This document shows, one piece after another, positions 41,749 to 61,600 of a stretch of 64,000 bases of DNA (positions within the stretch are counted from its first letter, which is position 1; the number at the start of each line of letters is the position of its first letter). The position numbers and the translations under genes are program-made. The notes beneath the pieces were generated by a model, which worked only from the letters and a program-made list of their open reading frames with translations, did not search any database and was not told the DNA's origin. The stretch is from positions 62,001 through 126,000 of the forward strand of contig PAMZ01000010.1 in assembly GCA_002707495.1 (NCBI GenBank). The letters run 5' to 3'. The DNA is from Halobacteriovoraceae bacterium. Its GTDB lineage: Bacteria > Bdellovibrionota > Bacteriovoracia > Bacteriovoracales > Bacteriovoracaceae.

Positions 41749-44700
41749 ATGAATATTATTGGGATTCGGGTATTTATATTATTGATTTTTCTCACAGGTT
41801 GTATGCCGGAGCAGCAAGTCCGTTCTGATATTAATAACGAATCTCTAAATTCATCTGACTCTTCAAACTCCACGGATGATAACACCACCACTGACACTGT
41901 GACTGGGCAATTTGAAGAATCTGTAAATTTCTTTCAACAAAATGGACAGCGAACAACGGCAACCCTAAGTCTGGCTTCAAATTATCAGGATAGCTACCTC
42001 ATTAGAGGTAATGATGTTTTTGCATTCTTATCAGACGTTTCTGATACCTATGATCATAATTTTTGTCTTGCTAGTTTCTTCCCAACTGTAAGCGGGAGCA
42101 CATCAAATAGTGTTCTCATCACCTCCGCACGAGTGAGGTCTTTTTATTCTAGTTTTCTCAACACCAGAGAACTCTTCTTACAAATTGAACCCAATAATGA
42201 AACCATAAATCAAAATGATTGCTTAACAGTAGCACTAACAAATAAGTTAGAGACTGTGTTTGGAACCACTGACTTCGCTTTTACAATTGATGATGTCTGT
42301 CCAGATTGTGCAAGCGGATATACATCCAGAAGTTTAAGACTTTTCGATATATTTGGAACAGAAAGAAATCAAGCCCTAATTTCACATCTCAATCTTAATC
42401 TTTCACCTGCAGTTGGATCCGTCGTCGTTGATGCTCCAATTTGTAGTTCAAATTCAAATTGTACGGGAATTGGTTTTAATTGTTGTTTAGACAATCAATG
42501 TGTTAATCACGGGCAAGTTAGACCCGAAGTGAATACCAGTAGTGATAACTACCTTATCGCTCTTGAGATACTGGAAGATAGACCAGAGTTGATCAATAAT
42601 TTTTCTGACCTTTTTTATGTCTGTCCTTTGATGGTTCCAACAGGACCTGACAATGATGGAGATACTGATCCGGATGATCCTGTCCAAGATGCTGCGGATA
42701 GATTAAAACTCAGAGAGAACCTTTTTAACTGCTTAAATCCTGTGGTAGATGAGATTTCAGTTTGTAGTCTGGATTTCGATAATGCCGATGCCTTAATGTC
42801 TTCAGGACCATATAGTTTTTCAGCCGAAAATGATGACATAAATTTCACATCTCTCAATTCAAATTTAAACTCCAACAATATTGTTCAAGTAGATTATGGA
42901 AATGTCACTCTTTTCAAAGAGCAATTACTTGAAGACGATGAGGTCATTTCACTTCCTAGCTCGATCGTATTAAGTGGAGCTAATGATTCTCTCAATCAGG
43001 CTCAAGTTGCCACAATCAATGCTCAGCTTCCTTCGAGCGCATCTAACGATACCCTTACTCTCTATTATAAGATAGATGGAAGCTGTGAAAAGCTTGGTAC
43101 ATCACTGGCGAGATGTAGCAAGACATATGTTCAAGGCCAGTCTTCAACGCCAGCAAGGCCTAGTGATCATTCAAGCGGAGATCAAACTTTTAGAATTCCT
43201 AGTTATGCTGACACGAGTTTTAGCGTTGTGGTAGAAGTCAGTGGTACGAGAGTATCATCTGGTTCTGATACATGGTCACTATCAGGTAATTCTGTTTTAT
43301 TCGACTCTTCTGACTATATCATTTTTGACAACCAAGAAGTTACAATCACTTATTTTGTCTCAAGTAATGTTGATAGCTTAACAGCAAGTAAAGAAGCGGC
43401 TCAATCGATACTAGACGATGAGTGTGCCTGTGATCCAGAGCGGGACCCGTGTAACTTGACTCCGGTTGAAACTGAAATAAATGGTGTCACCCGAATTACA
43501 GATTATGCATGTGTCTACCCCGACACTCTTAGCGATGGGCCGTTACAAGAAACGGTTTTTGTCTCGGCAAAATCAGTTCCTCATAAGTTTTATGATATAA
43601 ACGGTGTTAATTTTGACCTTGGAAGCGAGTCCTCTTCTGAAGCACAAGAAGGTACAGCATTTAGCTATCAAAACGGTAGTGAGCTAAGGCCAAATAATAT
43701 TGATACCTTTGTTGGTTTTAACGAGATTTATGGAACCATGAATGTTGATGCAGCTTCTCCTCTTCCACCAAAGGTTATCAACGTCGAAAAGAATACTGAA
43801 TACGATCTTTTTGCAGATGCAGGGGCTTTTTCAACCTGTCTCAATTGTGGCTCTGACTATTACTCCGGTCTTCAAAAATTATTTCCCAACGTATTTGATA
43901 CATTGGCCGGTGGATACACTCCAAACTTTGTAGAATCAAGACGTACAACCAATCAAGGAAAGCTGCCTGCTGATGATTTTCGATTTGGGCGAGCCTGCTT
44001 TGTACCGGCGTCCATGATTCCTTGGACCCATCAAGCAGGAAGTGATGTCACAACTCAAAGAAGGGCCAGATTGGATGCCCAGCATATTCTATTTGCCAAT
44101 GGTTACAATAAAGACTGGTATGGCTTTGACTATGGGGCCTTAATCGGATCTTTTGATGGCGTAAAATGGTTTGCTATTGGGAATCAAAGAAGGATAAAGG
44201 CAGAATCAAACAAATTGTATCTAGCTGTTAATGCCTACTTTGGTGACTTAACCATAAATAATTCCTATCAAGTGACAATTTCAGAAACTTCAGCTGTAGT
44301 AAATTCAGGCTCTCTGATTAATCACGACCTAGATAGTGATGGTGCCGAATGCCAAAGACAACATATTTGTGAGACAGATGAAGACTGTATCGCTCAGCTA
44401 GGCTACGATTATACCTGTCAAAACGTTAGAAGCCTCACAACTCAATGGCCAACATTTGATGCCAATGGAAACGAAACTGTGGGTAGCGTTGAAAAAACTC
44501 TTATTGGACTTGTGGGAGGTTCAAATAATGAGCCAAATAGATGCGTCTACCGAGGAGTTGGTGCTATCTGTGAGCAACTTCCCCAAAATACAACACAGGA
44601 GACTTCGTATTTAGGCTCTAACAAAGTCGCGCTACATACTTGTTCTCCTAATTCACAATGTGCCTCAATTAGTGACGCAAAATTCAATACAAAAATAGCC

Positions 44701-46758
44701 CGGTTTGCCCAATCACCAAGAAATCAAAATGCATCCAGTCTGGTGACAGAGGACACGGATACTTTCGGGCTAGCTGCGAGAATTTTAGGAAGACCATATG
44801 ATTATTATGGGTCTGATACTATCGATAGTGATACACGAACCACTTTGACTAATAATAATATTGAAGGACTTTGTGTTCCTGGTGTTGACGTCGATAATGC
44901 AACAACGACCCAACAGCTGAATTTTTTCTCTACGACAGAAAGAGAGGCAGATAAAATAACCAATGTCGGAAGAACTATGTCCAGTGCTATTGGGTTTGAC
45001 GACTATTATTATTCAGCTTGTCCAGCGACAGACGATGACGGCAATTATACCCACTTTAATAATGTCCCTCTCGACGATTCTAGTCATCAACCGTTTGCGA
45101 TAAAAAACAATCTTTCTACAAATGCGCTTGATTTAGACTCACTTTCAACCAGAGGTATTTTTAATGATGATGAATCTATAGTAAAAGATATTGGGTATCA
45201 TAAAAACACCTGCCTAAGAGCTCCAGGAGCGAAGTGTTTTTCGGACTTCGAGTGTGCCCCAAATAGTTTTATATCGTCTAAAGTTAAATCAGTATCTAGT
45301 TTTAATGGAGAGATATCCGAAGCTGAAGAAAATTTTTGGGAAGAGGAATTAGTTTGCGCAAATTCTCAAGAAAGGTATCAAAATAATTCTGCTATTTTAT
45401 TTAATCCGTTCTACGAAACTTTTGAACACCGGTGTTGTCGAGAGACCGATAAAGACTTTACTTTCTTCTCTCAACCTCACCTAAACCCTGAGTTTAGACT
45501 TGCGGATGATAGCGGTAACCCACAAGTTCCAGGTGTTCATTTAGATATTGCTGACCCTCAAAGATACTCTAGAATTCATACTATCTATGACAAACTTGTC
45601 AGTGAACCAGAAGAATATCCAAATTTGATTGTATCAGCGAGCCAACCTTCTTCTCCCCTAACTCTTGATTCGGATACAGTTGCACAGTATAAGACTCTCC
45701 ACCTTCATAACCAAAGAATGTGTTGTACAGGTCATTGGGTACGAAAATATTCTGATGCAAATGGAAACTCTGGAGGACATAAGCAATCACCTACGGCCCT
45801 ACAGAGTTTTGATATCAGTATATTCAGGGCCCTTTCTTGGAATGATAATAATGATCCACCGATCAATAACTTTTCAAATTATACGCCTATTCCATTTGCC
45901 TGTACCGATCAAGACTTTCAAACATCTGATTGTGAAGTTCGAAACATTACAGAAGGATCGAGCTATGAGAAACTCTATCTTGGTTGGCTAGGAAAGCTGG
46001 AACTTCTTGGGATTCCTCAAGTACTGATAGAGACTAATAATACTGTCTTTAAACCGGTAGATGATGATCAAGAGGATATTGCTGCCTCACTACTTCCTAT
46101 TGATAATACGGTTAAAGATGTAAATGTGGATGGAGTAGCAAATATAACCTACAACGGAACTCAGTACTACTCAGCGGGAGATATTGAGAATTTTGAAATC
46201 GGCTCGGGACAATTAAAACAAGTTTTCTCTGAAAATGAATTTCATTGCTGCCTTCCCACAGGTGTTGAAGTTCCAGGAGACACGACAGATACAGCTTGCT
46301 GTACGGGAAAAGTGGCGGCTAACGATCAAGGCGTTAATAGATGCTGCTTAGAAGATTTTACCGACCTCACCGTTTATACAAATAGATATGTCTCTAGTGA
46401 AGGAGAATTTAATGGGTCTCAAGAGATACTAGATTCACAAGTTGATCCACTTACTGGATATATAGACACTGAAGAGGTTCTAAAAATGGCATCCAGTATG
46501 TGTTGTTCCGGACAAGCAGCTACTGGAGTTGCAATTTCGAACTACTTTATTCCTGCTGTGGATGAAAACACACGCTTTCCCGGAGCCTTCACGAGAAGAT
46601 TTCTCTACAATGAAAACTTAGACAATGCCACGGAAGCCGGAGGTGGTGTGACTAAATTTAATGCTGGACTTAAATGGAATGACCACGTTTACTGTGTTCC
46701 AGCCTCTTTTGAAGAAGAAGGAAGTGGCTCTAGCGGAAGTGGGGCTAGTGAGCAATAA
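41749..46758 (+). CDS. Giant cysteine-rich lipoprotein (1669 aa)
   Basis: Lipoprotein: MNIIGIRVFILLIFLTGC, lipidated Cys at 18. An S/T/N/D-rich linker follows, then several beta-rich regions. Cysteines cluster into short knots: SNCTGIGFNCCLDNQCVNHG, ICETDEDCIAQLGYDYTCQN, AKCFSDFECAPN, HRCCRETD, RMCCTGHW, EFHCCLPTG, DTACCTGK, NRCCLED and SSMCCSGQAA. The double-Cys units recur toward the C-terminus, which ends in a flexible GSGSSGSGASEQ tail. An Asp-rich patch (GPDNDGDTDPDDPVQDAA) could bind calcium. A TATAGT lies 14 nt and AAGAG just before the ATG. It is a likely outer-surface, disulphide-stabilised adhesin or structural protein; no family recognised. Confidence 0.78.
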   Translation: MNIIGIRVFILLIFLTGCMPEQQVRSDINNESLNSSDSSNSTDDNTTTDTVTGQFEESVNFFQQNGQRTTATLSLASNYQDSYLIRGNDVFAFLSDVSDTYDHNFCLASFFPTVSGSTSNSVLITSARVRSFYSSFLNTRELFLQIEPNNETINQNDCLTVALTNKLETVFGTTDFAFTIDDVCPDCASGYTSRSLRLFDIFGTERNQALISHLNLNLSPAVGSVVVDAPICSSNSNCTGIGFNCCLDNQCVNHGQVRPEVNTSSDNYLIALEILEDRPELINNFSDLFYVCPLMVPTGPDNDGDTDPDDPVQDAADRLKLRENLFNCLNPVVDEISVCSLDFDNADALMSSGPYSFSAENDDINFTSLNSNLNSNNIVQVDYGNVTLFKEQLLEDDEVISLPSSIVLSGANDSLNQAQVATINAQLPSSASNDTLTLYYKIDGSCEKLGTSLARCSKTYVQGQSSTPARPSDHSSGDQTFRIPSYADTSFSVVVEVSGTRVSSGSDTWSLSGNSVLFDSSDYIIFDNQEVTITYFVSSNVDSLTASKEAAQSILDDECACDPERDPCNLTPVETEINGVTRITDYACVYPDTLSDGPLQETVFVSAKSVPHKFYDINGVNFDLGSESSSEAQEGTAFSYQNGSELRPNNIDTFVGFNEIYGTMNVDAASPLPPKVINVEKNTEYDLFADAGAFSTCLNCGSDYYSGLQKLFPNVFDTLAGGYTPNFVESRRTTNQGKLPADDFRFGRACFVPASMIPWTHQAGSDVTTQRRARLDAQHILFANGYNKDWYGFDYGALIGSFDGVKWFAIGNQRRIKAESNKLYLAVNAYFGDLTINNSYQVTISETSAVVNSGSLINHDLDSDGAECQRQHICETDEDCIAQLGYDYTCQNVRSLTTQWPTFDANGNETVGSVEKTLIGLVGGSNNEPNRCVYRGVGAICEQLPQNTTQETSYLGSNKVALHTCSPNSQCASISDAKFNTKIARFAQSPRNQNASSLVTEDTDTFGLAARILGRPYDYYGSDTIDSDTRTTLTNNNIEGLCVPGVDVDNATTTQQLNFFSTTEREADKITNVGRTMSSAIGFDDYYYSACPATDDDGNYTHFNNVPLDDSSHQPFAIKNNLSTNALDLDSLSTRGIFNDDESIVKDIGYHKNTCLRAPGAKCFSDFECAPNSFISSKVKSVSSFNGEISEAEENFWEEELVCANSQERYQNNSAILFNPFYETFEHRCCRETDKDFTFFSQPHLNPEFRLADDSGNPQVPGVHLDIADPQRYSRIHTIYDKLVSEPEEYPNLIVSASQPSSPLTLDSDTVAQYKTLHLHNQRMCCTGHWVRKYSDANGNSGGHKQSPTALQSFDISIFRALSWNDNNDPPINNFSNYTPIPFACTDQDFQTSDCEVRNITEGSSYEKLYLGWLGKLELLGIPQVLIETNNTVFKPVDDDQEDIAASLLPIDNTVKDVNVDGVANITYNGTQYYSAGDIENFEIGSGQLKQVFSENEFHCCLPTGVEVPGDTTDTACCTGKVAANDQGVNRCCLEDFTDLTVYTNRYVSSEGEFNGSQEILDSQVDPLTGYIDTEEVLKMASSMCCSGQAATGVAISNYFIPAVDENTRFPGAFTRRFLYNENLDNATEAGGGVTKFNAGLKWNDHVYCVPASFEEEGSGSSGSGASEQ

Positions 46759-47551
46759 TCAAATAAAGTAGTATTGCTGCTAACAAGGCACGATAAATAA
46801 AAAATGCACCTAGCCCAATCTTTGCTATAAGTTTTAAAAAAAAGTGAATTGTAATCAATCCAAAAATAAATGAAGCGATAACTCCGATCAACATGATCTC
46901 AGGAGCCACATAAGTTGCCTCTCCCTTTAACACCTCTGGTATTTTAAAGATAACAGAACCTAAAATGACAGGTAAAGAGAGAAGAAAAGAAAACCTTGAA
47001 GCCTCTAGTCTTCCCATTCCAAGAAATCGAGATGAAGTTAAAGTTATGCCTGATCTTGAAACGCCAGGGAATACAGCGAGACTTTGAGACAACCCAATGA
47101 TTATCGATTTTTTAAAATCAAGTTTTTTTGTCAAATCAAGACCCACGCTATCTGACCTATCAGACCAAAACATTAGGCCCCCGAACACAAATAGATTGAA
47201 GGCGATAAACTCAGGAGATCGTCCATACTCAAAGGCTAGATCTTTTATGACAAGAATTAAAACAAAGGAACTTGCAGTTGATACTATAAAATTTTGAATG
47301 AATCCTGTATCTTTTAAATTCCTATTAAAAATCAAATCAAAGAGTTCCCTAATAAGTTTTAAAATATCACGGTAGAAGTATAAGATGACCGCCATTGCAG
47401 TACCTAAATGCATCATCAAATCAAATACAACACCGGGATCTTTTAATTCAAAAAAAAAGGGAATGATAGCCAAATGGCCAGAGGAAGAGACAGGTAAGAA
47501 TTCGGTTAAACCCTGAATAAATCCGTAGAGGATAGCGAAAACTTCACTCAC
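46745..47551 (-). CDS. uppP: Undecaprenyl-diphosphatase
   Basis: Integral membrane phosphatase (268 aa, about eight helices) recycling undecaprenyl diphosphate for peptidoglycan and O-antigen synthesis; confers bacitracin tolerance. BacA-type motifs: FIQGLTEFLPVSSSGHLAI near the N-terminus and FPGVSRSGITLTSSRFLGM in the middle. The GTG start overlaps the TGA of the upstream FHA-RDD gene, so the two are coupled. Its 3' end runs 14 nt into the convergent giant lipoprotein gene. Confidence 0.95.
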   Translation of the reverse strand: MSEVFAILYGFIQGLTEFLPVSSSGHLAIIPFFFELKDPGVVFDLMMHLGTAMAVILYFYRDILKLIRELFDLIFNRNLKDTGFIQNFIVSTASSFVLILVIKDLAFEYGRSPEFIAFNLFVFGGLMFWSDRSDSVGLDLTKKLDFKKSIIIGLSQSLAVFPGVSRSGITLTSSRFLGMGRLEASRFSFLLSLPVILGSVIFKIPEVLKGEATYVAPEIMLIGVIASFIFGLITIHFFLKLIAKIGLGAFFIYRALLAAILLYLIIAH

Positions 47552-50061
47552 AGCTCCTCCTTTACCACAGGTGGAGTAATTCCAAAGTAGTCAAAATCTT
47601 TTTTAGATAACGCATTTTGGGTATTCACCAGAGATTTATATAAAGTTGATTCCATTTTTTGATCGATTTCAAGAGAATTAATATTTCTACTTATAAGTCC
47701 TTGAATAATTTTTACTTCCAGGCCTTGACTCAAAAACTCTCCCGCTAAAGCTTTGAAACGATCTGCTAAGAAAAGTTCCGTCTGTGCTTCAGATTTCAAT
47801 TCCATTTTTAATGCAAGACTATCAATATAAGCCGAAGCTGGATCCCCCCCTTCTATGACTTCCTTAGGCTTTGGAAACTTCAAAAAGTTGAATTTCTTAG
47901 CCGTCTCTTCTTGAGAAACATCTTGAGAAAAGATCAATAAGTCGGGATTTAATGTAGACAATGGCATATAACTAAAGACCTCTTCTTTTCCCGTTTGATG
48001 GGAAAGTAGAACTCCCTGAACATTGGCAAAATTGGTAAAAATCAATGACTCAATTTTATAGGGAACAATGGACTCAAAGCTTTCTCTTAAATTAATATGA
48101 GCGCCCATCATAATTCCTTGATTCGTAATGAAGTTCGGAATTGTTTCCAGATTTAGCTTATACACGTCAGCTAAGAGGGCCTTAAACTCAACACCAATAT
48201 TTAGCACCGTACTGGCATCGACTACAGGTTTAAAATTTTTATTATTCAGCTCATTGCTTTTTACGAATTTATGAATATTCGGCTGAAAATATTCACTAAA
48301 TAGATTCTCATCTACGAACTTACTGAAAAGACTTCGCAATTTGATATTAGACTGCTCTTTATAAACTTTTAAGTTTTCTCCTGTATTCATATCAAAGAAA
48401 GCTAATCCATACTTCCTATACTTTTTGCCATCGACCATAGAGATTTCTATCAATGGAAGTGCTTTAATATTTTCTCGTCTATCAAACTTAAGCCCGAGGT
48501 AATTAGACTTCACAGGTTGCTCGAAATTCCATGGCGCAATTTTTTTCTCACCTCTATCGTCCACCACTTTAGACTCAATAAGTTCAAAATTCTTAAAGAT
48601 AGGTGCAGAGAAATAAATTATTAGACAAAGTGGAAACATAATAACAATTAAAATGCTCGTTATCTTGGGATGAGGAGTAATAAGACGAGAAAAACTTAAA
48701 ACTTCTTTAATTGTTCTCCAACCAAAGATCGAAAGAAGATCTAAAAATGAAATAGGCAGGGTGAAAACTCCGATAATTTCTCGAATGACCCCTTTAACTC
48801 TATTGATAATCAATGAACCTGAGGTTGTTCTCATCCCAAGTAAAAGCTGCCCCAATGTCACTCCAAAGATTAATGTTCCTATTATTCTCATAGCAATAAT
48901 AAGAAAGAAAAATGAAATCCCTTGGCTTAAGAATTCAAATTCGGCAATCGAGTTCACCACTTCCTCAATAATGGGGACAGTAGAGATGAGTTCCTTATAA
49001 AGAGGATCAAGAAATTTCTCATACAGAGGAACAATAGCTTTCTTTAAGAATTCAGGAATTTCAAAAAAGACAGTTTTGAACTCCTCAACAGGACTTGCAA
49101 TAACATGTAAAGACAATGATAAAAGTGAATCTAAAAGAAAGGCCATAATCCTAATCACAGCCGAGGTAGCTGGAGGATGTACAGGTTTTATCTTTGCCGT
49201 TTTTTTCTTCTTCTTTTTCTTTGATGCGAACTTAGAGAAAAGTCCAGGTTTAGATTTTGACTCATCACTTTTGTCTTCGTCTAATTCTGCATCCTCCTCA
49301 TTAGAATCAGGGACATAATACTCAGGAGCCTTCTTCTTTTTTTTCTGGCCTTCAAGTAAAATCCCTTTTGAGGTCATCAAAGACATCTCTTGTTGTTCTT
49401 TTCTTTCTCGCATTTTGCCAATTTGAGTTTTCTCCGGCTTAATCTCAGCTGTTTCAGCATTTTCTTCGTATTTTTTTAGATCTAACTCAGCCGTTTTTTC
49501 AACTTTTTCAGGCATTTCAATATCTAGGTCAGAGACCTCATCAAAATCCATCTCTTCAGCAGATGGAATTGGCATCTCATGCATGGATGGGATATCTGCA
49601 TGATTTTCTTGCTCTTCCATTTCTTGTTCTACAGAATCATCATTAGATTCAGAATCAACTTCCTCATCTCTTGGCACAGGCTTCATTTCTACAATAGCTA
49701 ATAACTGTCCCAATTTAAGTTTATCTCCAGGATTCAAGATAAACATCTTCCCTGGATTAAGCTTTTTTTTATTTACGAATGTACCCTCTTCACTGGAGTG
49801 GTCGATAACTGAAACGATGTCTCGACTGATAAGAAAAGTGCAGTGTCTTGGAGAAATAGTGGGATCGTCTAGAACTAAATCTCCCACTTCACTGCCCACA
49901 GTGAGCTTTGGTGCGACCCTTCTCGAGAGCTCTTGTTCGAGATTAGTAAAGGTAATATACGCATCTTTAGGGAGCGAAGCTTCAACCTCTTCCAATAAGT
50001 TAGAGGTCTGATCGCCAATATTTTCTGTCGCCTGATTTTTTTTGAAGAGTTTTCCTAGCAT
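47548..50061 (-). CDS. FHA-domain protein fused to an RDD membrane domain
   Basis: 837 aa. An FHA domain lies near residues 50-125 (LTVGSEVGDLVLDDPTISPR, followed by HCTFLI and EEGTFVNKKKLNPG), keeping the S-x-R-H phosphothreonine-binding loop but with Ser for the usual GR arginine and Glu for the NG asparagine. A long acidic, then lysine-rich linker (about 130-290) precedes an RDD membrane domain (AVIRIMAFLLDSLLSLSL, FGVTLGQLLLGMRT) with several helices, then a 300-residue C-terminal extracytoplasmic domain of unknown type. No Ser/Thr kinase is in the window. It is divergent from the 1123-aa secreted protein gene and translationally coupled to uppP. Confidence 0.83.
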   Translation of the reverse strand: MLGKLFKKNQATENIGDQTSNLLEEVEASLPKDAYITFTNLEQELSRRVAPKLTVGSEVGDLVLDDPTISPRHCTFLISRDIVSVIDHSSEEGTFVNKKKLNPGKMFILNPGDKLKLGQLLAIVEMKPVPRDEEVDSESNDDSVEQEMEEQENHADIPSMHEMPIPSAEEMDFDEVSDLDIEMPEKVEKTAELDLKKYEENAETAEIKPEKTQIGKMRERKEQQEMSLMTSKGILLEGQKKKKKAPEYYVPDSNEEDAELDEDKSDESKSKPGLFSKFASKKKKKKKTAKIKPVHPPATSAVIRIMAFLLDSLLSLSLHVIASPVEEFKTVFFEIPEFLKKAIVPLYEKFLDPLYKELISTVPIIEEVVNSIAEFEFLSQGISFFFLIIAMRIIGTLIFGVTLGQLLLGMRTTSGSLIINRVKGVIREIIGVFTLPISFLDLLSIFGWRTIKEVLSFSRLITPHPKITSILIVIMFPLCLIIYFSAPIFKNFELIESKVVDDRGEKKIAPWNFEQPVKSNYLGLKFDRRENIKALPLIEISMVDGKKYRKYGLAFFDMNTGENLKVYKEQSNIKLRSLFSKFVDENLFSEYFQPNIHKFVKSNELNNKNFKPVVDASTVLNIGVEFKALLADVYKLNLETIPNFITNQGIMMGAHINLRESFESIVPYKIESLIFTNFANVQGVLLSHQTGKEEVFSYMPLSTLNPDLLIFSQDVSQEETAKKFNFLKFPKPKEVIEGGDPASAYIDSLALKMELKSEAQTELFLADRFKALAGEFLSQGLEVKIIQGLISRNINSLEIDQKMESTLYKSLVNTQNALSKKDFDYFGITPPVVKEEL

Positions 50062-50248: not shown

Positions 50249-53200
50249 ATGAAAAATGTATTAAATCAAATTTTTAAATTGGCAAACTTCGCCATTATTT
50301 TTCAGTTGGTCACCATGCCTCTTGCTTCTGCTTTTGATAATCGCAATGGTGGCGGATTCGGTGAACAGAATAGTCAGGGCTTTAGTGATTACTCTGGTTA
50401 TACAAATGCTGCTTTTCAAGTTTCAAGTTTTTTTAATCAGGCTGCTAATGCCTTTCTTGGTGTTCAACAAGGACCTGTTGATAGAACTCAACAATATATC
50501 CAACAATTAACTCCGATGCTTGCGATGACTCCTCAACCCCCGGGGACTTATCCTGCTGCATTCAACGGATGTACCGTTTTATCTTCGACACCAAACACCT
50601 TAGGTGCTGGATCCACATGTGATGAAGTACCTCCTCAGCAAATTCTCGAAGGTTATGGCGCAGCTTTAATGAAGATTGCTGATGATAATTTAAATGCTAT
50701 GAGCGTTGCTTCTACTGCTTCAAATGATAGAACAGATTTTCGAGGGGAAACTTGTTATCAAGAGGGAATCGCAAGCCTTGCGGCTCAGCTAAAAACAAGA
50801 GAGACCGAGCTTAAAGATTATGTCAGAAAAATGGAAGAGATCTTTCAAAACTTCGAGCTCGCTTCTCAAGAAACCCTTGAGGGAATAAAGCAAGTTGACG
50901 CCATTTTAAACGGCCCATGTGAAACTTGTCGTGAAAAAAACGGAGTGGCACAAAAAGACTATTTAGAAGACTTTCGATTTGAAAATATTCTTTTCGATGC
51001 CAACGATAATGGAGCTTGTGGATCTTGGTATTCTGAAACCGCTGTGAGAGAGCAAGGTGGAAGAATTGGTCTTAAAGGAATTGAAAGAGAAATCACATCT
51101 CGGCAAATTGAAACAGCTGATAGATTTAAAGGTCAAAGACAACAGATCAGAAACGAAATCATGAGCCTAACCTCTTCTATTGCTAGTACCTATAAAAATA
51201 GAAATCAATTTACGGCGAATGGTTTAAATGCGGCCAATAGAACAACTCTATTCTCATCAACCTCTCCCGCTCTAGCTTCGGCGATCCAAAGATTTGATAC
51301 TAGAATTAATAATCAAATCGGAGACCTAAATCGCTCACTAGATATGGAAAATCTCATTGGATCGCAACAAGGATCTGAGGAATTACAACTATTATATAGA
51401 CAGATTCAAGCTGGAACTGGTGATCTAGATAATGTCGCCACTCAAATCACGATGTTTGAACGTCAAACAAAGGCTCAGTGCTTTAGAGGTCTTGTGACTT
51501 CTGCTTTAGAGAATGACAATATTCAAGAAGGGCTCAAAGGCTTTAATAATCCTAACGTTAGTGGAAATAAACGAAGAAATGCTGATAGTTCACTTGCCAC
51601 ATCTCTTGCGAATCAAATTTCAAACTTAGACAATATGACATTTGATGAATTTATTGCAGAAGTTGAACGCATAGAAATGACAGGAACTAATGCCCTTAAA
51701 ACCTGGCTTCCAGGAAGAGGAATTGACTTTGGAAACGGTGATCAGCTAGGTGCATCTGATAGACTAAGACCTTCTGGACTTTTTCAGAGGCTAGCCAATA
51801 ATTGTGACCAACAGTTTAGACAAAAACGCTCTGATCTTGGGGGGGTGAGTTTAAATAAAATGGTCTCTAATTTGAGAGACTACGCCGTTCAAATGAATCG
51901 ACTTAAAGAGACAGCTAATGGAAATCTTCTCGCAGACTTAAGACGTGACCTATTAACTTGTCCGGATGATTCATCTACGGGTTCTGCTGATATGAGTTGT
52001 AATGCAGATAGAATGTCCCCAACAGGCGGAGCTTTTTGTTTGGCATCAGCTCAAAGATGTATGGCAAACGTTTATAGCTGCCAAGATAAAATCACAGCGA
52101 AAATTCAAGAAGCAGAGACTCAGCAAAAGACTTTAATGACTAATTATAAGGCAGAAGTTGATACCGCCAAGCAACAGCTTCTGGCAGAGGTGACTCAACT
52201 TGAGCAATTTATGATTCAAAGTGCAAGACAACTTGATGCTCAACTTAATTTAGGGACAGTCACGGAGACTCCTGGTCTTCAGATTGATCTTACCGGAACA
52301 AATTTTTTAAGAGATGATATGAGAGCAGATCTTAGACTTGAAGATCCTGAAAAATATCTAGCTGAGATCAAAAAACAAATCACAGGTGAAGGTGGAAATC
52401 CTCAAGAGAGTTTACTTGGTCAATTAGAAAAACAAAGAGAAGAGCTTGTTGGTCAAATTGGTGATGATCCAACCGGAGACTTACGAGGCAAAGGTCGTCT
52501 TGGGGCCATGGCCGCTCAATATGTCCAATCCTATCAAGACAATGCCGATTACTTTAGAGAAATTATTCGTTCTTGTAGTCAAGCGATGACCAGAGCAAAT
52601 CAACAAGAACAAGAAAGACTAGACGGTATAGCGGAACAAAATCAACAAATTGCTGATGCTTGTAGCGCCGTTCAAGCCTTTAACTCCAACCCTCTTGAGG
52701 GAGACCTAGCAGAAATAGCCGGTGATGCCGCTTCAGCGGTACGAATTGCAGCTTCGATGCCGAACCCTGGAAGATTTGTGAATCAATATCAAGATATGCG
52801 TGAAATTGAGAGAATCAGAAACTTCAATCAAAGCTGTGCCGACTCAGACGGTGGTGGCTTTGGAAATAGAAATATCAGAGCGACTGCAATATGTTCTGTA
52901 GCACAAAATAATAGAACAGAACCAAGTTTAGAAAGAGACAAAGAAATCTGGGAGCTGACCAGTATGAGTAGCCAGAGAGATACTATTTTAGATCTTTGTG
53001 GAGAGGCAGGTATTATTGAGCCAAGAAGAAATGTCGCAGGTGAAAACGGAGTTTATTATTGTAGTGAAAATCAAGCTGATCGACCTTTTGGTGATAATGC
53101 AAAAATTTGTTATCTAACCGAAGGACAGCCTGATTTTGCTGTGTATGTTCGAATCGATGGCGATACGAGAACTACTATTGATAGGCCTCCAAGTTATGCA

Positions 53201-53620
53201 GTTGCAGATGGTGGCATAACTTGTGCCGATATAAATGATTTCCGCGGATTTGCAGAAGAAGAGGATCCTAATAACGATCCAGGAGCTGATATAAGATTTA
53301 GAGAGAGAGATGTTTCAAGAGAGCGGATCGACAGAAGCATAGTCCAAGCGGCTGTAGCCTCCTCACGCTATGATGGTGAATACTGTATTCCAGGCAGTGG
53401 TAATACACTAGATTTCCAAAGTGATAGACGTGAATATGCCAGAGAGGAACTTGAATACTTAGCGGCAGGATTTAATTGTGCGCGAGCAGAGAGATCCACC
53501 GGACAAGTAAGACTCTCCATTTGTTCCGCAGATGTAGATGGATTTTTAACTAGTAAAGGAATTGATCCAAGATTAGGAAGTGAAGCTGCGCAGGCGCTGG
53601 GACAAGCACTTGCACAGTAA
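50249..53620 (+). CDS. Large secreted coiled-coil protein (1123 aa)
   Basis: Signal peptide (LANFAIIFQLVTMPLASA, cut near residue 28), then a Gly/Asn-rich stretch (NRNGGGFGEQNSQGF) and long helical segments rich in Q, E, R and L with scattered Cys (ETCYQEGIASLAAQLKTRET, NGPCETCREKNG, AEVTQLEQFMIQSARQLD, NQQEQERLDGIAEQNQQI). A smaller Cys-bearing region closes the protein. No lipobox. AAGGGG precedes the ATG. It is followed by the peptidase lipoprotein after 21 bp and is probably cotranscribed with it. Likely a periplasmic or extracellular structural component or a substrate of that peptidase. No family recognised. Confidence 0.75.
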   Translation: MKNVLNQIFKLANFAIIFQLVTMPLASAFDNRNGGGFGEQNSQGFSDYSGYTNAAFQVSSFFNQAANAFLGVQQGPVDRTQQYIQQLTPMLAMTPQPPGTYPAAFNGCTVLSSTPNTLGAGSTCDEVPPQQILEGYGAALMKIADDNLNAMSVASTASNDRTDFRGETCYQEGIASLAAQLKTRETELKDYVRKMEEIFQNFELASQETLEGIKQVDAILNGPCETCREKNGVAQKDYLEDFRFENILFDANDNGACGSWYSETAVREQGGRIGLKGIEREITSRQIETADRFKGQRQQIRNEIMSLTSSIASTYKNRNQFTANGLNAANRTTLFSSTSPALASAIQRFDTRINNQIGDLNRSLDMENLIGSQQGSEELQLLYRQIQAGTGDLDNVATQITMFERQTKAQCFRGLVTSALENDNIQEGLKGFNNPNVSGNKRRNADSSLATSLANQISNLDNMTFDEFIAEVERIEMTGTNALKTWLPGRGIDFGNGDQLGASDRLRPSGLFQRLANNCDQQFRQKRSDLGGVSLNKMVSNLRDYAVQMNRLKETANGNLLADLRRDLLTCPDDSSTGSADMSCNADRMSPTGGAFCLASAQRCMANVYSCQDKITAKIQEAETQQKTLMTNYKAEVDTAKQQLLAEVTQLEQFMIQSARQLDAQLNLGTVTETPGLQIDLTGTNFLRDDMRADLRLEDPEKYLAEIKKQITGEGGNPQESLLGQLEKQREELVGQIGDDPTGDLRGKGRLGAMAAQYVQSYQDNADYFREIIRSCSQAMTRANQQEQERLDGIAEQNQQIADACSAVQAFNSNPLEGDLAEIAGDAASAVRIAASMPNPGRFVNQYQDMREIERIRNFNQSCADSDGGGFGNRNIRATAICSVAQNNRTEPSLERDKEIWELTSMSSQRDTILDLCGEAGIIEPRRNVAGENGVYYCSENQADRPFGDNAKICYLTEGQPDFAVYVRIDGDTRTTIDRPPSYAVADGGITCADINDFRGFAEEEDPNNDPGADIRFRERDVSRERIDRSIVQAAVASSRYDGEYCIPGSGNTLDFQSDRREYAREELEYLAAGFNCARAERSTGQVRLSICSADVDGFLTSKGIDPRLGSEAAQALGQALAQ

Positions 53621-53641
53621 AAATAATATGGGGTAAGAATA

Positions 53642-56326
53642 ATGAGCGAAAGGATTCGTTTTCATTCAAAATCAAATTTCACACAATTCATATTGTGCTC
53701 CACCCTTTTGATTCTTTTAGGCTGTGAAGGTGTGACCGAAGTCAATAAATCAGAAAATAGAAGTAGAGATGCTGCTATTTTCTCTGGAACCGGTTCTGGT
53801 AGAGTCTATCTTGATAATCCTTCTATCTTAAACGGAAGATATACAACTTCTGCTAATTTCAGAAATAAAACCACCAGTCGTTTTATCACTGACAATACGA
53901 CTCTTTCTACAGAGTGCTCGTTTGAGCAGTTTTTACCAAACTTTTTTGACTCAACCTCGCTTGACTCTTTTACAGATAGCACCAGTTCAAATTGCATGAA
54001 CGTTCTAAATGATCGCAGTGCAAGTACAGATCCTTTGATAAGCTCTAATCTTGATTGGGATTTTACGACTCACTCGGATGAATTCTACCAAGTCAGTACA
54101 TTTTATCATGCCAATCTCATTCGTGAGCGATTTCTAGAATCACTAAGCTTTACCCATAAACAGGTTCACCTCAATGGAAGCCTTTTTATCCCCCCTTCAA
54201 CGAAGTATAATTTCATAGATACGCGCTCTTATTGGCTTCATGATAGTGGTTCCACAGTGAATATGGATATTTTTTCAAAATGCCAGCTCACTCCCATTAA
54301 TGCTTTTTTTGATCCTGCCAATAACCAAGTCTGTCTAGGTTTTGACCCCAATGATGGTGACAATAACTTTCTCATCACTCAAGACCCATCAGTTACCTAT
54401 CACGAGATGGGACATGTTTTTGTAAAGATATTAATGAATCAAAGAAATATGACTAGTGGGATTGATCCAAATTCCTCCTCTGTCTACTATGAAGGTAAAA
54501 CATTTAGTTCTGATCTTGGAGATATTTTCTATGATGAGGGTGGAGCTATTAACGAAGGTATAGCTGACTGGTTTGCCTATTATATGAACAATAGAGATGA
54601 GGTGGGTGAATTTGCTTTATACAGACTGCAAGGTCTAGCAAGGCCTGTCAGTGAAGATAGCGATCAACACACCACAAGTGTTTCGACGACTTCAGGCGAG
54701 AGACTCTCCTACCCTCAATATCTACAATATAACCCACCCAATCTCGGAGAAAACGTTGAAGACGTCCATAACGCCGGAACAATTATTTCTCATTATTTAG
54801 TGGCACTTCAAAAAGAGCTTAAAAACTCCTGTACTTTTTCAACTTCAGATACTGATGAGATTCACGAAATCACTGGGGATTATATGGTTCTTCTTCTCAG
54901 TGAAACGATGGCGGAAATTGGAGATCTGACCGCGAAAGGATCTGATTTTTTCTCACAATATGCCACGGTTGACTCAGACTATAACGATGTTTATTTCACA
55001 AATCTAAACGAGGATCACTCTTATCTATGGACTCAAAAAGTGAATCCCCCAAACTTTAGACGCTTTTTTAGAATTTTTGGAAAGAATATTCTTTATCATT
55101 TGTCAGTGGACCTATGTCCAGAATTTACAATCGATGACTCAGAAAAACTTCTTGATGATTATGGGCTTTTACTTTTTAAATCTTATGAGGATAGAGGAAA
55201 TGGTATAGATCTTGATGGTCTATTGTCATTAAGCTATTTTAACTTTTCAGGTGATCATGAACTCTTTTCTGATAGAGAGATTAATCCTGTAATATTAAAC
55301 ACCAAAGTTAATGAAGACAATAGAAGAAATACTGTCTTAATTGCTAAAGACTTTATTGAACTTGATGATGACATTCTTGCTTTCGTTGTTGATGGGCAAA
55401 AACAAATGGCTGACTTTATAGCCTCACTTACTTTCCAAGGTGAAAATGTTGAGACGACTGAAGGAATTGCTGGAACTGAATACAATAATTCAAACGCTAA
55501 AATCTCTCCAGGTGAAGTCATAGGAATCTCATTAAATCTTTTTAACAAATCAAACTCTGTCATGGCCGGTGTACAAGTGCTTGCCAATGATTGGGATCAT
55601 ATGGCCTTAAACGATAATAGTGATGTTTATGTAAATCGTTTTGAAAATATAAATGGTCTCAGTAATGGAGATATTACTGGTGATATTGCCTATCACAAGC
55701 CTTGTATGTTCGATGAATTTCCTTCTGAATCAGAAGGAGCTATAAATCCAGCCAATGAAACAGGTTCCGCTGCCGGTGAGTGTAGTTATATAACGAGAAC
55801 TAACGCTGGAATTGACACAACTGAAATTGTGAATGATGTACATCCTAAATATGACGTGGATGCACCACAGCCGATTTGTTTGGTTCAATATAGAGACGAA
55901 GATGAAACGACCTGGGTTTCTCAAGATTTTTTTAGAAAAACTGAAATGAAATTAGATGATAAAGATTGTCTGAACAATCCTTCGATTTCGGGACCCGACT
56001 TTAATCCAAATGCCTGCCTTATTCGAATGCTACCTGGGGCCGAGCACGCTTTTCTATCAAAGATTAACGCTCAAAGCACTTGGGTCGACACCCTAAGAGG
56101 AGAAAGTCAAAACGGAATCCAGTTTAACTCTTCTGCTGTTATGGCAATGGAAGTGAACAAATGGATTCCACCGGGAACGCTTTTTAATTGTCGTTTTAGA
56201 GTACGATTTAGCAATTGTTCGGATTGTTTTAATGACAGCTCCACTGATGATGATCTTCCGGATTATGAATTTGCAGGGCCAGATCCCTATAAAATCATCA
56301 ATTTTCAATTTGAGGTTTTAGACTAA
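53642..56326 (+). CDS. Thermolysin-like (gluzincin) metallopeptidase lipoprotein
   Basis: Lipobox LLGC with lipidated C28, then a 220-residue N-terminal region and a zinc site YHEMGHVF (H254, E255, H258). Further ligands look like those of M4/M36 enzymes: E305 in AINEGIADWFAYYM as the third ligand, although about 46 residues after H258 is longer than in thermolysin, and H376 in VEDVHNAGTIISHYLVAL matching the thermolysin transition-state His. The C-terminal half (about 560-894) is beta-rich with Cys pairs (FRVRFSNCSDCFNDSSTDDD). It shares a one-base overlap with a PepSY-like protein gene downstream. Target proteins unknown; cell-surface location is predicted. Confidence 0.77.
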   Translation: MSERIRFHSKSNFTQFILCSTLLILLGCEGVTEVNKSENRSRDAAIFSGTGSGRVYLDNPSILNGRYTTSANFRNKTTSRFITDNTTLSTECSFEQFLPNFFDSTSLDSFTDSTSSNCMNVLNDRSASTDPLISSNLDWDFTTHSDEFYQVSTFYHANLIRERFLESLSFTHKQVHLNGSLFIPPSTKYNFIDTRSYWLHDSGSTVNMDIFSKCQLTPINAFFDPANNQVCLGFDPNDGDNNFLITQDPSVTYHEMGHVFVKILMNQRNMTSGIDPNSSSVYYEGKTFSSDLGDIFYDEGGAINEGIADWFAYYMNNRDEVGEFALYRLQGLARPVSEDSDQHTTSVSTTSGERLSYPQYLQYNPPNLGENVEDVHNAGTIISHYLVALQKELKNSCTFSTSDTDEIHEITGDYMVLLLSETMAEIGDLTAKGSDFFSQYATVDSDYNDVYFTNLNEDHSYLWTQKVNPPNFRRFFRIFGKNILYHLSVDLCPEFTIDDSEKLLDDYGLLLFKSYEDRGNGIDLDGLLSLSYFNFSGDHELFSDREINPVILNTKVNEDNRRNTVLIAKDFIELDDDILAFVVDGQKQMADFIASLTFQGENVETTEGIAGTEYNNSNAKISPGEVIGISLNLFNKSNSVMAGVQVLANDWDHMALNDNSDVYVNRFENINGLSNGDITGDIAYHKPCMFDEFPSESEGAINPANETGSAAGECSYITRTNAGIDTTEIVNDVHPKYDVDAPQPICLVQYRDEDETTWVSQDFFRKTEMKLDDKDCLNNPSISGPDFNPNACLIRMLPGAEHAFLSKINAQSTWVDTLRGESQNGIQFNSSAVMAMEVNKWIPPGTLFNCRFRVRFSNCSDCFNDSSTDDDLPDYEFAGPDPYKIINFQFEVLD

Positions 56327-56910
56327 TGAGTAAGAGGACAAAAAATATTCTCAAATATTCTGCTTTTATTATGCTAGCTGTGGTCTTTGTTGGAGTAGGA
56401 TATTTTTTATCTCAAGATTTAGCGAAAAGAAATAAAATTGAGACGACTAAAAGCTCAACAACAAAGACGAAAACGATTGATCGTATACCCAGCTCAATCA
56501 AGTCTTCAAAAACTTCACCCACAATTCCTAAGAATGACAACATAATTGGCAAAAGAGTACTGATTGGGGACAAGTTCAGCGATAAATCGAAGTTGAAATT
56601 TATCAATAGCGTTAATCCCGACTGGCAGAAAATCTATACAAAAAAGCTGCTTCGATTGGGTAAGGCAAAGCCTGTAAGTGAACTTAAAATTGATCATCAA
56701 AAATCATTAATACAAGTAAAGAAAAACTCTGCCAGAAATCTAGAGCATATCAAAGTGTCGTATTTAGATGAAAGCGGAAATCCATTTGCTTTTGAAGCAC
56801 TGGTTGATTCTCATACAGGTTCGTTAGTGCGATCATGGAATCAAACTCGCTACGAGTTTAAAAAGCCACTTAGCTTTTCCGCAGAAGGAACAGCATTTTA
56901 TAAAGATTGA
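56326..56910 (+). CDS. Membrane-anchored PepSY/FTP-like protein
   Basis: 194 aa. One N-terminal helix (YSAFIMLAVVFVGVGYFL), a Ser/Thr/Lys linker (about 35-70), then a small alpha/beta domain. Its end, LEHIKVSYLDESGNPFAFEA plus LVDSHTGSLVRSWNQT, has the beta-hairpin and D..TG pattern of PepSY and FTP domains, which act as inhibitory or chaperone pro-domains of M4 peptidases. The ATG overlaps the stop of the HEMGH peptidase gene (TAATG), so expression is coupled. It could restrain or fold that enzyme in trans. The last 13 nt overlap convergent metG. Domain match is by eye. Confidence 0.66.
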   Translation: MSKRTKNILKYSAFIMLAVVFVGVGYFLSQDLAKRNKIETTKSSTTKTKTIDRIPSSIKSSKTSPTIPKNDNIIGKRVLIGDKFSDKSKLKFINSVNPDWQKIYTKKLLRLGKAKPVSELKIDHQKSLIQVKKNSARNLEHIKVSYLDESGNPFAFEALVDSHTGSLVRSWNQTRYEFKKPLSFSAEGTAFYKD

Positions 56911-58645: not shown

Positions 58646-61600
58646 TTAGTAATTATCTTCTTCTGGAAACTCCCATCTCTGTCTAGGACGATCATTTTCA
58701 TCTAAAACCCAGTCATCATCATAATACCAATTAGCATTTAAGCTTGCAAAGTCAGCTGCAATTGTATCTGCATTTAGAGGCACTCCTCCGCCAGCACCAA
58801 CATCACCTACAACACCATTGTCAGAGCCACTAGGTGCATTTGCCGAACTGCCAATTAAGTTTCCTTGATTAGATACACCTGCCATTGTCCCCACTAAATT
58901 ATTCACGTAATTATTATAAAAACTCATAGCACTACCATCTGTTGTATAGCCCACAAGCCCCCCATATGTTGCAGCTCCAGTGCTATCTAAATCGTCTGGA
59001 GTGGGCGTGTTTTCTTGATTACCATCAATCCAAACATAAGAATGATATATTTCTAGAGGGGAACTTCCCATAACACCGACTAAACCACCTATTGTCGCCC
59101 CTCCAATTTGATCATCAACTTGCACTAAATTTGCAAAAGAGCGGCTGATCCTGACACTACTTGTCCCCGTGTGATAACCTAGAATTCCTCCCATCAGACC
59201 GGAAGTCCCGTTGATGGCAGTGAGTTTTCCTTCAAAACTACTGTCTACAATATCAACATGTGTTGCTCCAGGACCAATCACTGAACCTATAATTCCCCCG
59301 ACAGTGACATTATCAGTACTCCCACTATCCTCCACTGAAAAATCACCATTTTTCACTCTGACAGACGCTATAATCTCCTTTCCAGCGATGCCAAGAGAGG
59401 TGTCAATTCGCCCAATAATTCCAACAGAGCTAGGTCCAGCAGTTGAAGTATTTTTAATTTCTATATTTTCAAAATTTAAAGGTTTTTCTCTGGTTCCGAC
59501 TTGTGCTCCACTTGCTGCGAAAGCGACAACGCCAAAACCATTTCCACCATTATTACCCTGATCAGTATCCACAATATTTCTAATGACTCCATCACCAAAA
59601 ATTGTTCCTATAAAAGGATTTACTGAGGAGCCAATTGGATTGATGGTACCGTTTGCAAAGTCTAGACCTGAGTCAGCAATTTTAAAAGTTTTGGACATAA
59701 GAAATGACGTATCACCAATTGAATCCCATTTCGCAGGTGTATCTAAGATATAGGGATCCATAGCGCTACCCATTTTATAGTATTCAATATTGCCTGACTC
59801 GAAGACGGGAGCAAAATTATAAACCGCTTGATAAAACTTTAATTCACAGCGACTCGTCCCGTCTAAATTGACAAAGGAAAACTCAGTGGATGCAGTCGTT
59901 CCACCAATTAAAGTATCACAGGCAGAAGAATCATCCGCTGTTACGACATCCTCTATTTCGCCAGCATCACAAAATGCAAAACCAGTCCCACAATTACTCA
60001 GAGTAAATGAGCTATCTATATCGTTAATAGCACCAATATTGGCAATCACATTTTGAGAGTGAGGATATCCAGGAAGGTTAGTGTCTCCAAATAAATAGCC
60101 ACAGCCTTGAGATGTACAATTTGTGATATCTACTCCCAAAGTCATATCAAAATTAACTTTACTATCGAAAACATTTAGATTGGCGGGACCTGTAAATTTA
60201 CCGGCATACCCTCCGACGACTCCGGTTCTAGCGTAGAGGTCTACTTCACCAAAAGAATTAAAAATGATGGAGTCTTCTCCTTCACCGAAAAAGCCTCCGA
60301 TCTCACTGGTACCCTCAATCGCCATTTGAACTATATTATTTGTGGTATAGACATAATCTCCCTTACCTACTAAACCACCCCTTCTCGTCGCACCTCCTGC
60401 CACAAAATTACCGAGGCCTGCAATTGAGTCAGAAACAGATCCTAAGGCACTAGAATTTTGGATAGCCATAAATCCTGAACAGCTTGAAGAACAATGTATA
60501 TATCCAGCGATACCACCATGATGACTTCCGTCCACGTGGGTGTACATCACGCCTCTAGAGTTATTGATACGAAGAGCAAGCGTAATACCATCGTAGTTAT
60601 AATAACCGATTATTCCTCCAAGGTTATTAACTGTATAAGAAGAATGGGGAGTCGCGAGTTCTCCAATTTGAACTTGTCCGTGGGATCCATCGATAAATAC
60701 AGGTGTAGAGTTGGAAGTATCTGAGTTAACTCTTCCAATAACTCCCCCAATATTCTGTATATTGGCACTCGGATTAATTGTTAGATATCCCATGGAATCA
60801 TTGATTTTAAGAGTTTTAGAAGAGCCAAAAATCGTTTCTCCAACGAGCCCCCCCATACCACCATTAGAATTGGTGGTGACATCACTAACGACTATATTAC
60901 CTAATCTCACTTCTATATCATCAGCCGTTCCAATAAGACCGCCAAAAGTAAAATTGCCATCTACGGTAACTGATATCGGCATTTGATCTGAATCAAAATT
61001 AAAATTAGAATCTTCATCATAAGAATAGGGATTTACAGATAGTCCGACAGCATTTGCTGCAATCGCGGTATTTACGTCGGAAGATTTACCAATGGCTCTT
61101 CCAATCAGCCCTCCCAAAGAATGTCCGATTCCGACCGACCCTGAGGTTAAATTTACATTAACCCAGTTCTCGCGGATGAAAATATTATCCCCCACAACCG
61201 CTGCGGTTTGATCTACAATACCAATCAGACCTCCCACACCACTTGCATTATTTTGAGTTCCAATTGTGATAGAAGAATTCGTAATTTCAACTCCACTTAT
61301 TGACATCTCAAAACCACTACCATTTCCGCCTAAGACTTTTGCTAAGATTCCAATATGATCTGTAGTTGAATTATCAGAAATATTAGCTTGAGTAATTTTT
61401 ACATCTCTAATCCAAACTTCATCAACTGTAGATCTTATTGCTGAGAACAGTGGTTGATTGAAATTGCTTAAGGTATTTCCTTCCCCTTGGAGTTTTCCTG
61501 AAAAAACATTGGGAATAGTGGTATTACTTCCCCCAAAATCGATATTGTCTAAAAGGATATATTCAGCATCCGCTTGGCAATCCATCGAGCTAGCAACATC

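Follow-up and report, generated by a model that had tools for sequence, protein, structure and literature searches.

Can a zinc peptidase whose catalytic motif lies too early in its chain to leave space for a pro-domain receive one from the neighbouring gene? The question is raised by three adjacent genes in a 64,000-nt stretch of contig PAMZ01000010.1 (the window, meaning the whole stretch analysed) from a Halobacteriovoraceae bacterium of the phylum Bdellovibrionota, whose source assembly (GCA_002707495.1) is a 3.36-Mb genome in 22 contigs. The genes share the + strand and are separated by a 21-nt gap and then a 1-base overlap (TAATG); the initial annotation of this DNA, made from the letters alone, had the coordinates, frames and spacing exactly right. 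P0001 (50249..53620, 1123 aa) is a secreted, helical/coiled-coil, Cys-containing protein; P0002 (53642..56326, 894 aa) is an M4/M36-like zinc peptidase lipoprotein without a pro-domain in cis; and P0003 (56326..56910, 194 aa) is a membrane-anchored, PepSY-like protein. In M4 enzymes the pro-domain is both an intramolecular chaperone, that is, a folding aid, and an inhibitor, and it is known to be carried within the same chain as the enzyme. We propose that P0002 and P0003 probably constitute a split zymogen of the thermolysin/fungalysin type (M4/M36), in which P0003 would be the trans pro-domain of P0002, acting as foldase or inhibitor.

A conserved lipoprotein peptidase with no room for a pro-domain

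The thermolysin-like motifs first read in P0002 are indeed there and are of the M4/M36 kind. HEMGH at residues 254-258 (54401..54415) supplies two zinc ligands and the catalytic Glu, E305 in NEGIAD (54554..54556), which follows the M4/M36 pattern (N/G)E(G/A)xxD, is the third ligand, and H376 in VHNAG (54767..54769) is the proposed counterpart of the active-site His of thermolysin, H231. H254, E255 and H258 are kept in 33/33 homologues with residues at those columns, E305 in 34/34 and H376 in 32/34; the loss of zinc ligands, which the initial annotation had named as a refuting finding, was not seen in any family row with residues there. The lipobox (LLGC) cysteine C28 (53723..53725) is a Cys in all 33 homologues having a residue at that column, and a conserved C-terminal domain extends over about residues 685-894. 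HExxH starts 226 residues past the lipid Cys, so early in the chain that no room is left for a cis pro-domain, and a Pfam search found no FTP or PepSY match within P0002. The suggestion that the pro-domain is separate from the peptidase is borne out to this extent, and the split recurs across the phylum, as described below.

In a single-sequence search, P0002 was present in 34/37 genomes of the family (Bacteriovoracaceae/Halobacteriovoraceae), its own included, and had no match in 22 genomes from other families of the phylum; across the order, a P0002 profile matched 121/129 genomes, a small number of which gave weak paralogue matches only. Gene order was compared in 34 loci around P0002 homologues from 33 other genomes, judged by the position and length of open reading frames (ORFs) and later backed by profiles, with contig ends left out. 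A P0001-like ORF lies immediately upstream of P0002 in 32/32 evaluable loci and a P0003-like ORF immediately downstream in 31/32. The sole exception (G029) does possess a P0003 homologue, its domain complete (E 3e-30), at another place in its genome. The conservation of P0002 and of the order of the triad is far beyond chance, and the gene order on which the initial proposal had been made to depend is thereby found.

Probable split enzymes across the Bdellovibrionota

The in-depth genome search covered the Bdellovibrionota, in many other families of which the P0002 profile finds distant enzymes. The loci of 57 such enzymes and five others were collected and typed by the position of HExxH. In the early type it lies at residue ~180-260, leaving no space ahead of it for a cis pro-domain, and the next same-strand ORF usually overlaps the enzyme gene or almost abuts it, encoding 190-310 aa with an N-terminal hydrophobic helix. 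FTP is matched by Pfam in 12/20 of these partner ORFs and PepSY in 6/20. The PDB entries 3nqz and 3nqy show the M4 protease vibriolysin MCP-02 as its autoprocessed complex, in which chain A, of about 175 residues, is the pro-domain. The profile of the partner ORFs matches this chain of 3nqy along its length (E 4e-6), matches prothermolysin (5a3y, E 1.2e-6) and aligns with the cis pro-domain of enzymes of the same phylum (hhalign probability 92, E 5e-7). Leave-one-out profiles recover all 29 aligned partner ORFs (worst E 2e-6). Over 513 ORFs, the FTP+PepSY profile at E<=1e-3 retrieves 30 enzyme-adjacent ORFs, one ORF two places away, three enzymes of the cis type and nothing else.

The presence of a partner follows the position of the catalytic motif. 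With HExxH before residue 270, a trans pro-domain ORF is adjacent (in one case two ORFs away) in 34/45 evaluable relatives, a conservative count composed of 29 recovered by leave-one-out together with L111, L112, L113, L134 and L135, contig-end loci being excluded; in L134 the partner ORF is upstream of the enzyme. With HExxH after residue 380, such an ORF is found in 0/8: five of the eight match a cis pro-domain profile, which was built from those five, and the remaining three are longer proteins without a recognised pro-domain. The alignment of the P0002 family with the split enzymes spans 457 columns (hhalign probability 100, E 1.8e-42). In the PDB, the split-enzyme profile hits enzymes of the M36 and M4 families (E 2e-8), and one distant homologue (L093), a member of the profile that aligns with the P0002 family, passes the Pfam M36 cut-off (26 versus 23.3). 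These sequence comparisons suggest that trans pro-domains are a theme of the whole phylum.

Where HExxH sits at about 295-357, in enzymes probably from Bdellovibrionaceae, a pro-domain-like neighbour is mostly missing, and the small ORF upstream encodes a different conserved protein. At six loci (L137, L139, L147, L148, L155, L158), M4-like lipoproteins probably of Bdellovibrionaceae have directly upstream a small conserved exported protein of ~125-165 aa bearing the motif 'GVFVPGGFDS'.

P0003 as a probable shortened pro-domain

P0003 has an N-terminal transmembrane anchor (about residues 10-30; 56353..56415) and no lipobox, and a single N-terminal hydrophobic helix is present in almost all its relatives. 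The AlphaFold2 model (pLDDT 83.7, the domain mostly >90) consists of the anchor helix, a linker and, at about residues 96-180 (56611..56865), a PepSY-like domain of one helix and four strands; as modelled, the helix is packed against an antiparallel sheet in the manner of M4 pro-domains. When the model was compared by Foldseek with 350,542 PDB chains, 3nqz_A ranked first (probability 0.99) and 3nqy_A second (0.92). P0003 itself had no match to PepSY (PF03413) in the Pfam search; among its homologues, the Pfam family with the largest number of matches is PepSY (3/32, best E 0.0032), and the fragilysin pro-domain matches one homologue. The P0003 profile aligns with the C-terminal PepSY part of the distant partners (hhalign probability 77, E 2e-5), 'F-ALVDS-TG-IL-TW-RT' standing opposite 'QVVVDA-TG-VL--RDRR', and for its C-terminal half three partner ORFs rank first among the 513 (E 4e-4, 0.005 and 0.14). 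Since this PepSY end aligns with the distant partners and the FTP half was not seen in P0003, the protein is most readily interpreted as a trans pro-domain that has been shortened. The initial description of the 194-aa protein as FTP/PepSY-like therefore holds for the PepSY-like part and the M4 pro-domain-like fold but not for the FTP half, and the profile search proposed with it (FTP, PepSY, M4, M36) succeeded with distant relatives and partners while P0002 and P0003 themselves stayed below the Pfam cut-offs.

We had expected P0003-like paralogues to adjoin other proteases, an expectation that was rejected: their neighbours are PLC-like/ricin proteins, SBP_bac_3 proteins and unrelated genes. 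At five loci (L083, L085, L088, L090, L092) P0003-like anchored proteins adjoin secreted proteins of ~580-690 aa with a ricin-type lectin domain (by Pfam for L090) and an N-terminal part that by eye resembles PI-PLC-X. In two genomes of one genus a P0003-like protein comes straight after a solute-binding protein of SBP_bac_3 type (L082:7631-9251, L086:3697-5257).

The neighbourhood of the pair and its loss

Upstream of the triad, most family loci have three further genes: P0004, a giant Cys-rich lipoprotein of 1669 aa (41749..46758, + strand); a gene for an undecaprenyl-diphosphatase-like (UppP-like) protein (46745..47551, - strand), lying between P0004 and P0001; and an FHA/RDD-like membrane protein (47548..50061, - strand), the last two names being read from the sequence only. 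P0001 has 14 cysteines invariant across 32 homologues and no family was found for it in Pfam or the PDB; direct single-protein searches of Pfam, NCBIfam and the PDB gave no family for P0001, P0003 or P0004.

P0002, P0003 and the P0004 family are all absent from genera g4, g33, g64 and g66, where matches were read as follows: those of P0003 in G107, G108 and G137 cover the anchor and linker part only, and paralogues account for the weak P0002 matches seen in G003 and G137. The six loss genomes tested form one clade within the family in an rpoB tree (100/99), which implies one loss event. In G011, a genome 87% complete, P0001-P0003 were not seen and P0004-family matches are kept. The co-occurrence expected of P0002 and P0003 is thus observed, the two being lost together and the displaced P0003 homologue being retained in G029. 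The coiled-coil protein fares otherwise: relatives of P0001 are retained in the clade that lost protease, partner and P0004 family, so that P0001 was rejected as an obligate partner and its place as a fixed member of the module, as first proposed, is not supported.

The family has a second locus in which a fast-evolving secreted coiled-coil-like protein is followed by a P0004 paralogue (L200:4457-12462, on contig C10 of the window's own genome; also L202, L203 and L204). This locus is missing from the loss clade too, and the loss was therefore not one deletion of neighbouring genes. In the loss clade (L100-L104) the surroundings of the P0001 relative also encode a lipoprotein of ~295 aa with HELGH, for which the other family loci that were inspected contain no homologue. 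Within the window, past a methionyl-tRNA synthetase gene, the opposite strand encodes a large lipoprotein of 1351 aa with repeated GGLIG-type motifs (58646-62701). The window's own genome gave two rpoB matches above the cut-off (G000:C12:8-3928 and G000:C22:148915-152967), and the one at a contig start (G000:C12:8-3928) may point to a foreign contig in the assembly.

Proposed mechanism and alternative explanations

We propose that P0002 would be exported and lipidated, carrying its zinc peptidase domain without a pro-domain, and that P0003 would remain anchored to the inner membrane, exposing its PepSY-like domain to the periplasm, where it would bind P0002. There it could serve as a steric foldase and a temporary inhibitor, like the cis pro-domains of M4 enzymes, retaining P0002 in the periplasm until its folding is complete, keeping it inactive, and releasing it as it moves to the outer envelope. 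This holding and inhibiting mechanism is inferred from M4 biology and by analogy with Lif and CpaB, and we likewise infer binding, foldase or inhibitor action, co-transcription, secretion route and substrate. GspD, a type II secretion component, was above the cut-off in 9/9 genomes tested, the window's own included, and a type II route for P0002 is therefore possible. The residue at +2 after the lipid Cys varies across the homologues (N, E, D, S and others) and does not decide where P0002 ends up.

Several observations weigh against a split zymogen. On the enzyme side, P0002 scores 12.5 bits for Peptidase_M4_C where Pfam requires 24.4; its structure model (pTM 0.86), compared whole by Foldseek, gave no significant PDB match and no M4 structure; and the thermolysin-type His is replaced by Y and by Q in two homologues. 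On the partner side, no P0003-family sequence reaches the PepSY cut-off, hhalign lends moderate support, and the MCP-02 chains are followed in the Foldseek list by other cystatin-like folds; because the E-values (0.013 and 0.06) are weak and the TM-scores low (about 0.25), the fold match of the modelled domain alone would not decide its identity as a pro-domain. Eleven early-HExxH relatives have no recognised partner ORF, the contrast between early and late types (Fisher p 9e-5) counts related genomes as independent, and the losses of P0002 and P0003 amount to two events at most. The adjacency of P0003-like paralogues to non-protease genes, moreover, indicates that the domain is not protease-specific. 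This last point, together with the presence of GspD, also speaks for a general membrane-anchored export chaperone of the Lif/CpaB kind, which would aid export of P0002 without inhibiting it and would resemble PepSY by chance rather than descend from an M4 pro-domain; P0003 shares with those proteins the single N-terminal anchor and the short spacing to the gene of a secreted enzyme (PMC4713064), and its paralogues stand next to other secreted proteins. However, the top fold matches of P0003 are M4 pro-domains, and FTP+PepSY can be recognised in the partners of the distant homologous enzymes; we consider this explanation unlikely. PepSY proteins control non-proteases in other bacteria (PMC4282423), and it could be argued that P0003 acts as an independent regulator, controlling perhaps a sensor kinase or cell-wall enzymes, and that its position after P0002 is merely historical; given its nearly invariant place next to P0002, its loss together with P0002 and a phylum-wide partner pattern that follows the absence of a cis pro-domain, this is very improbable.

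A further hypothesis is compatible with the split zymogen: P0001-P0004 may together make up a single surface assembly system whose protease would mature the giant Cys-rich lipoproteins, the coiled-coil protein or both. The neighbourhood of all four genes is conserved, the P0004 family is missing from the clade without P0002 and P0003, and the second locus again puts a P0004 paralogue beside a secreted coiled-coil-like protein. Against this, the joint loss is a single event confined to one clade, P0001 persists where the other three are gone, and G011 keeps P0004-family matches and none of P0001-P0003; we regard the hypothesis as rather unlikely. It can also be speculated, as an improbable extension of the split zymogen, that the Bdellovibrionota possess a lineage of split zymogens whose representative in Bacteriovoracaceae became the maturation protease of a P0004-family/coiled-coil surface system in the predatory life cycle.

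Relation to known systems

Anchored trans partners such as Lif, CpaB and YpeB, as well as stand-alone PepSY proteins, are already known, and the label 'undescribed' given to the module holds in detail but not for the principle of a membrane-anchored partner next to a secreted enzyme. In the open-licence literature searched we found no described function for the P0002-P0003 pair and no report of a natural split M4/M36 zymogen with a separate anchored pro-domain. If the proposal is true, a split pro-domain would allow folding, inhibition and place of release to be studied separately, and it would join the ideas of the intramolecular chaperone and the Lif-type foldase. It provides a set of stand-alone PepSY proteins with a function that can be tested, and the pair occurs almost throughout a family in which known predators of bacteria are found.

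With the M4/M36 zymogens (vibriolysin MCP-02 and prothermolysin, FTP-PepSY in cis), P0002 shares HExxH, the Glu in NEG(I)AD and the His in VHNAG, and P0003 the pro-domain-like fold. Unlike in these zymogens, the pro-domain is separate and membrane-anchored, with the PepSY-like part only, and the enzyme, itself a lipoprotein, has a large C-terminal domain, with 46 residues separating HExxH from the Glu ligand. Lif is not known to be a PepSY domain. Lif and CpaB act on type II substrates as membrane-bound chaperones, and their class is marked by a single N-terminal transmembrane helix and a gene adjoining that of the secreted enzyme (PMC4713064); P0003 has both, with P0002 as the predicted secreted enzyme. 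The likeness extends to a periplasmic domain and very short gene spacing; in contrast, CpaB is a predicted SRPBCC protein and CpaA a different metallopeptidase. The PepSY part of the pro-domain acts as inhibitor in M4 enzymes (PMC4282423), and YpeB, a separate PepSY protein, inhibits and stabilises the hydrolase SleB (PMC6660665, PMC4282423), but SleB is cortex-lytic, not M4/M36, and YpeB has more than one PepSY domain. P0003 also resembles the stand-alone PepSY proteins of group 2 of Yeats et al. 2004 (cited in PMC4282423), which have PepSY without a catalytic domain; whereas their partner enzyme is generally unassigned, the likely partner of P0003 is encoded by the adjacent gene throughout the family.

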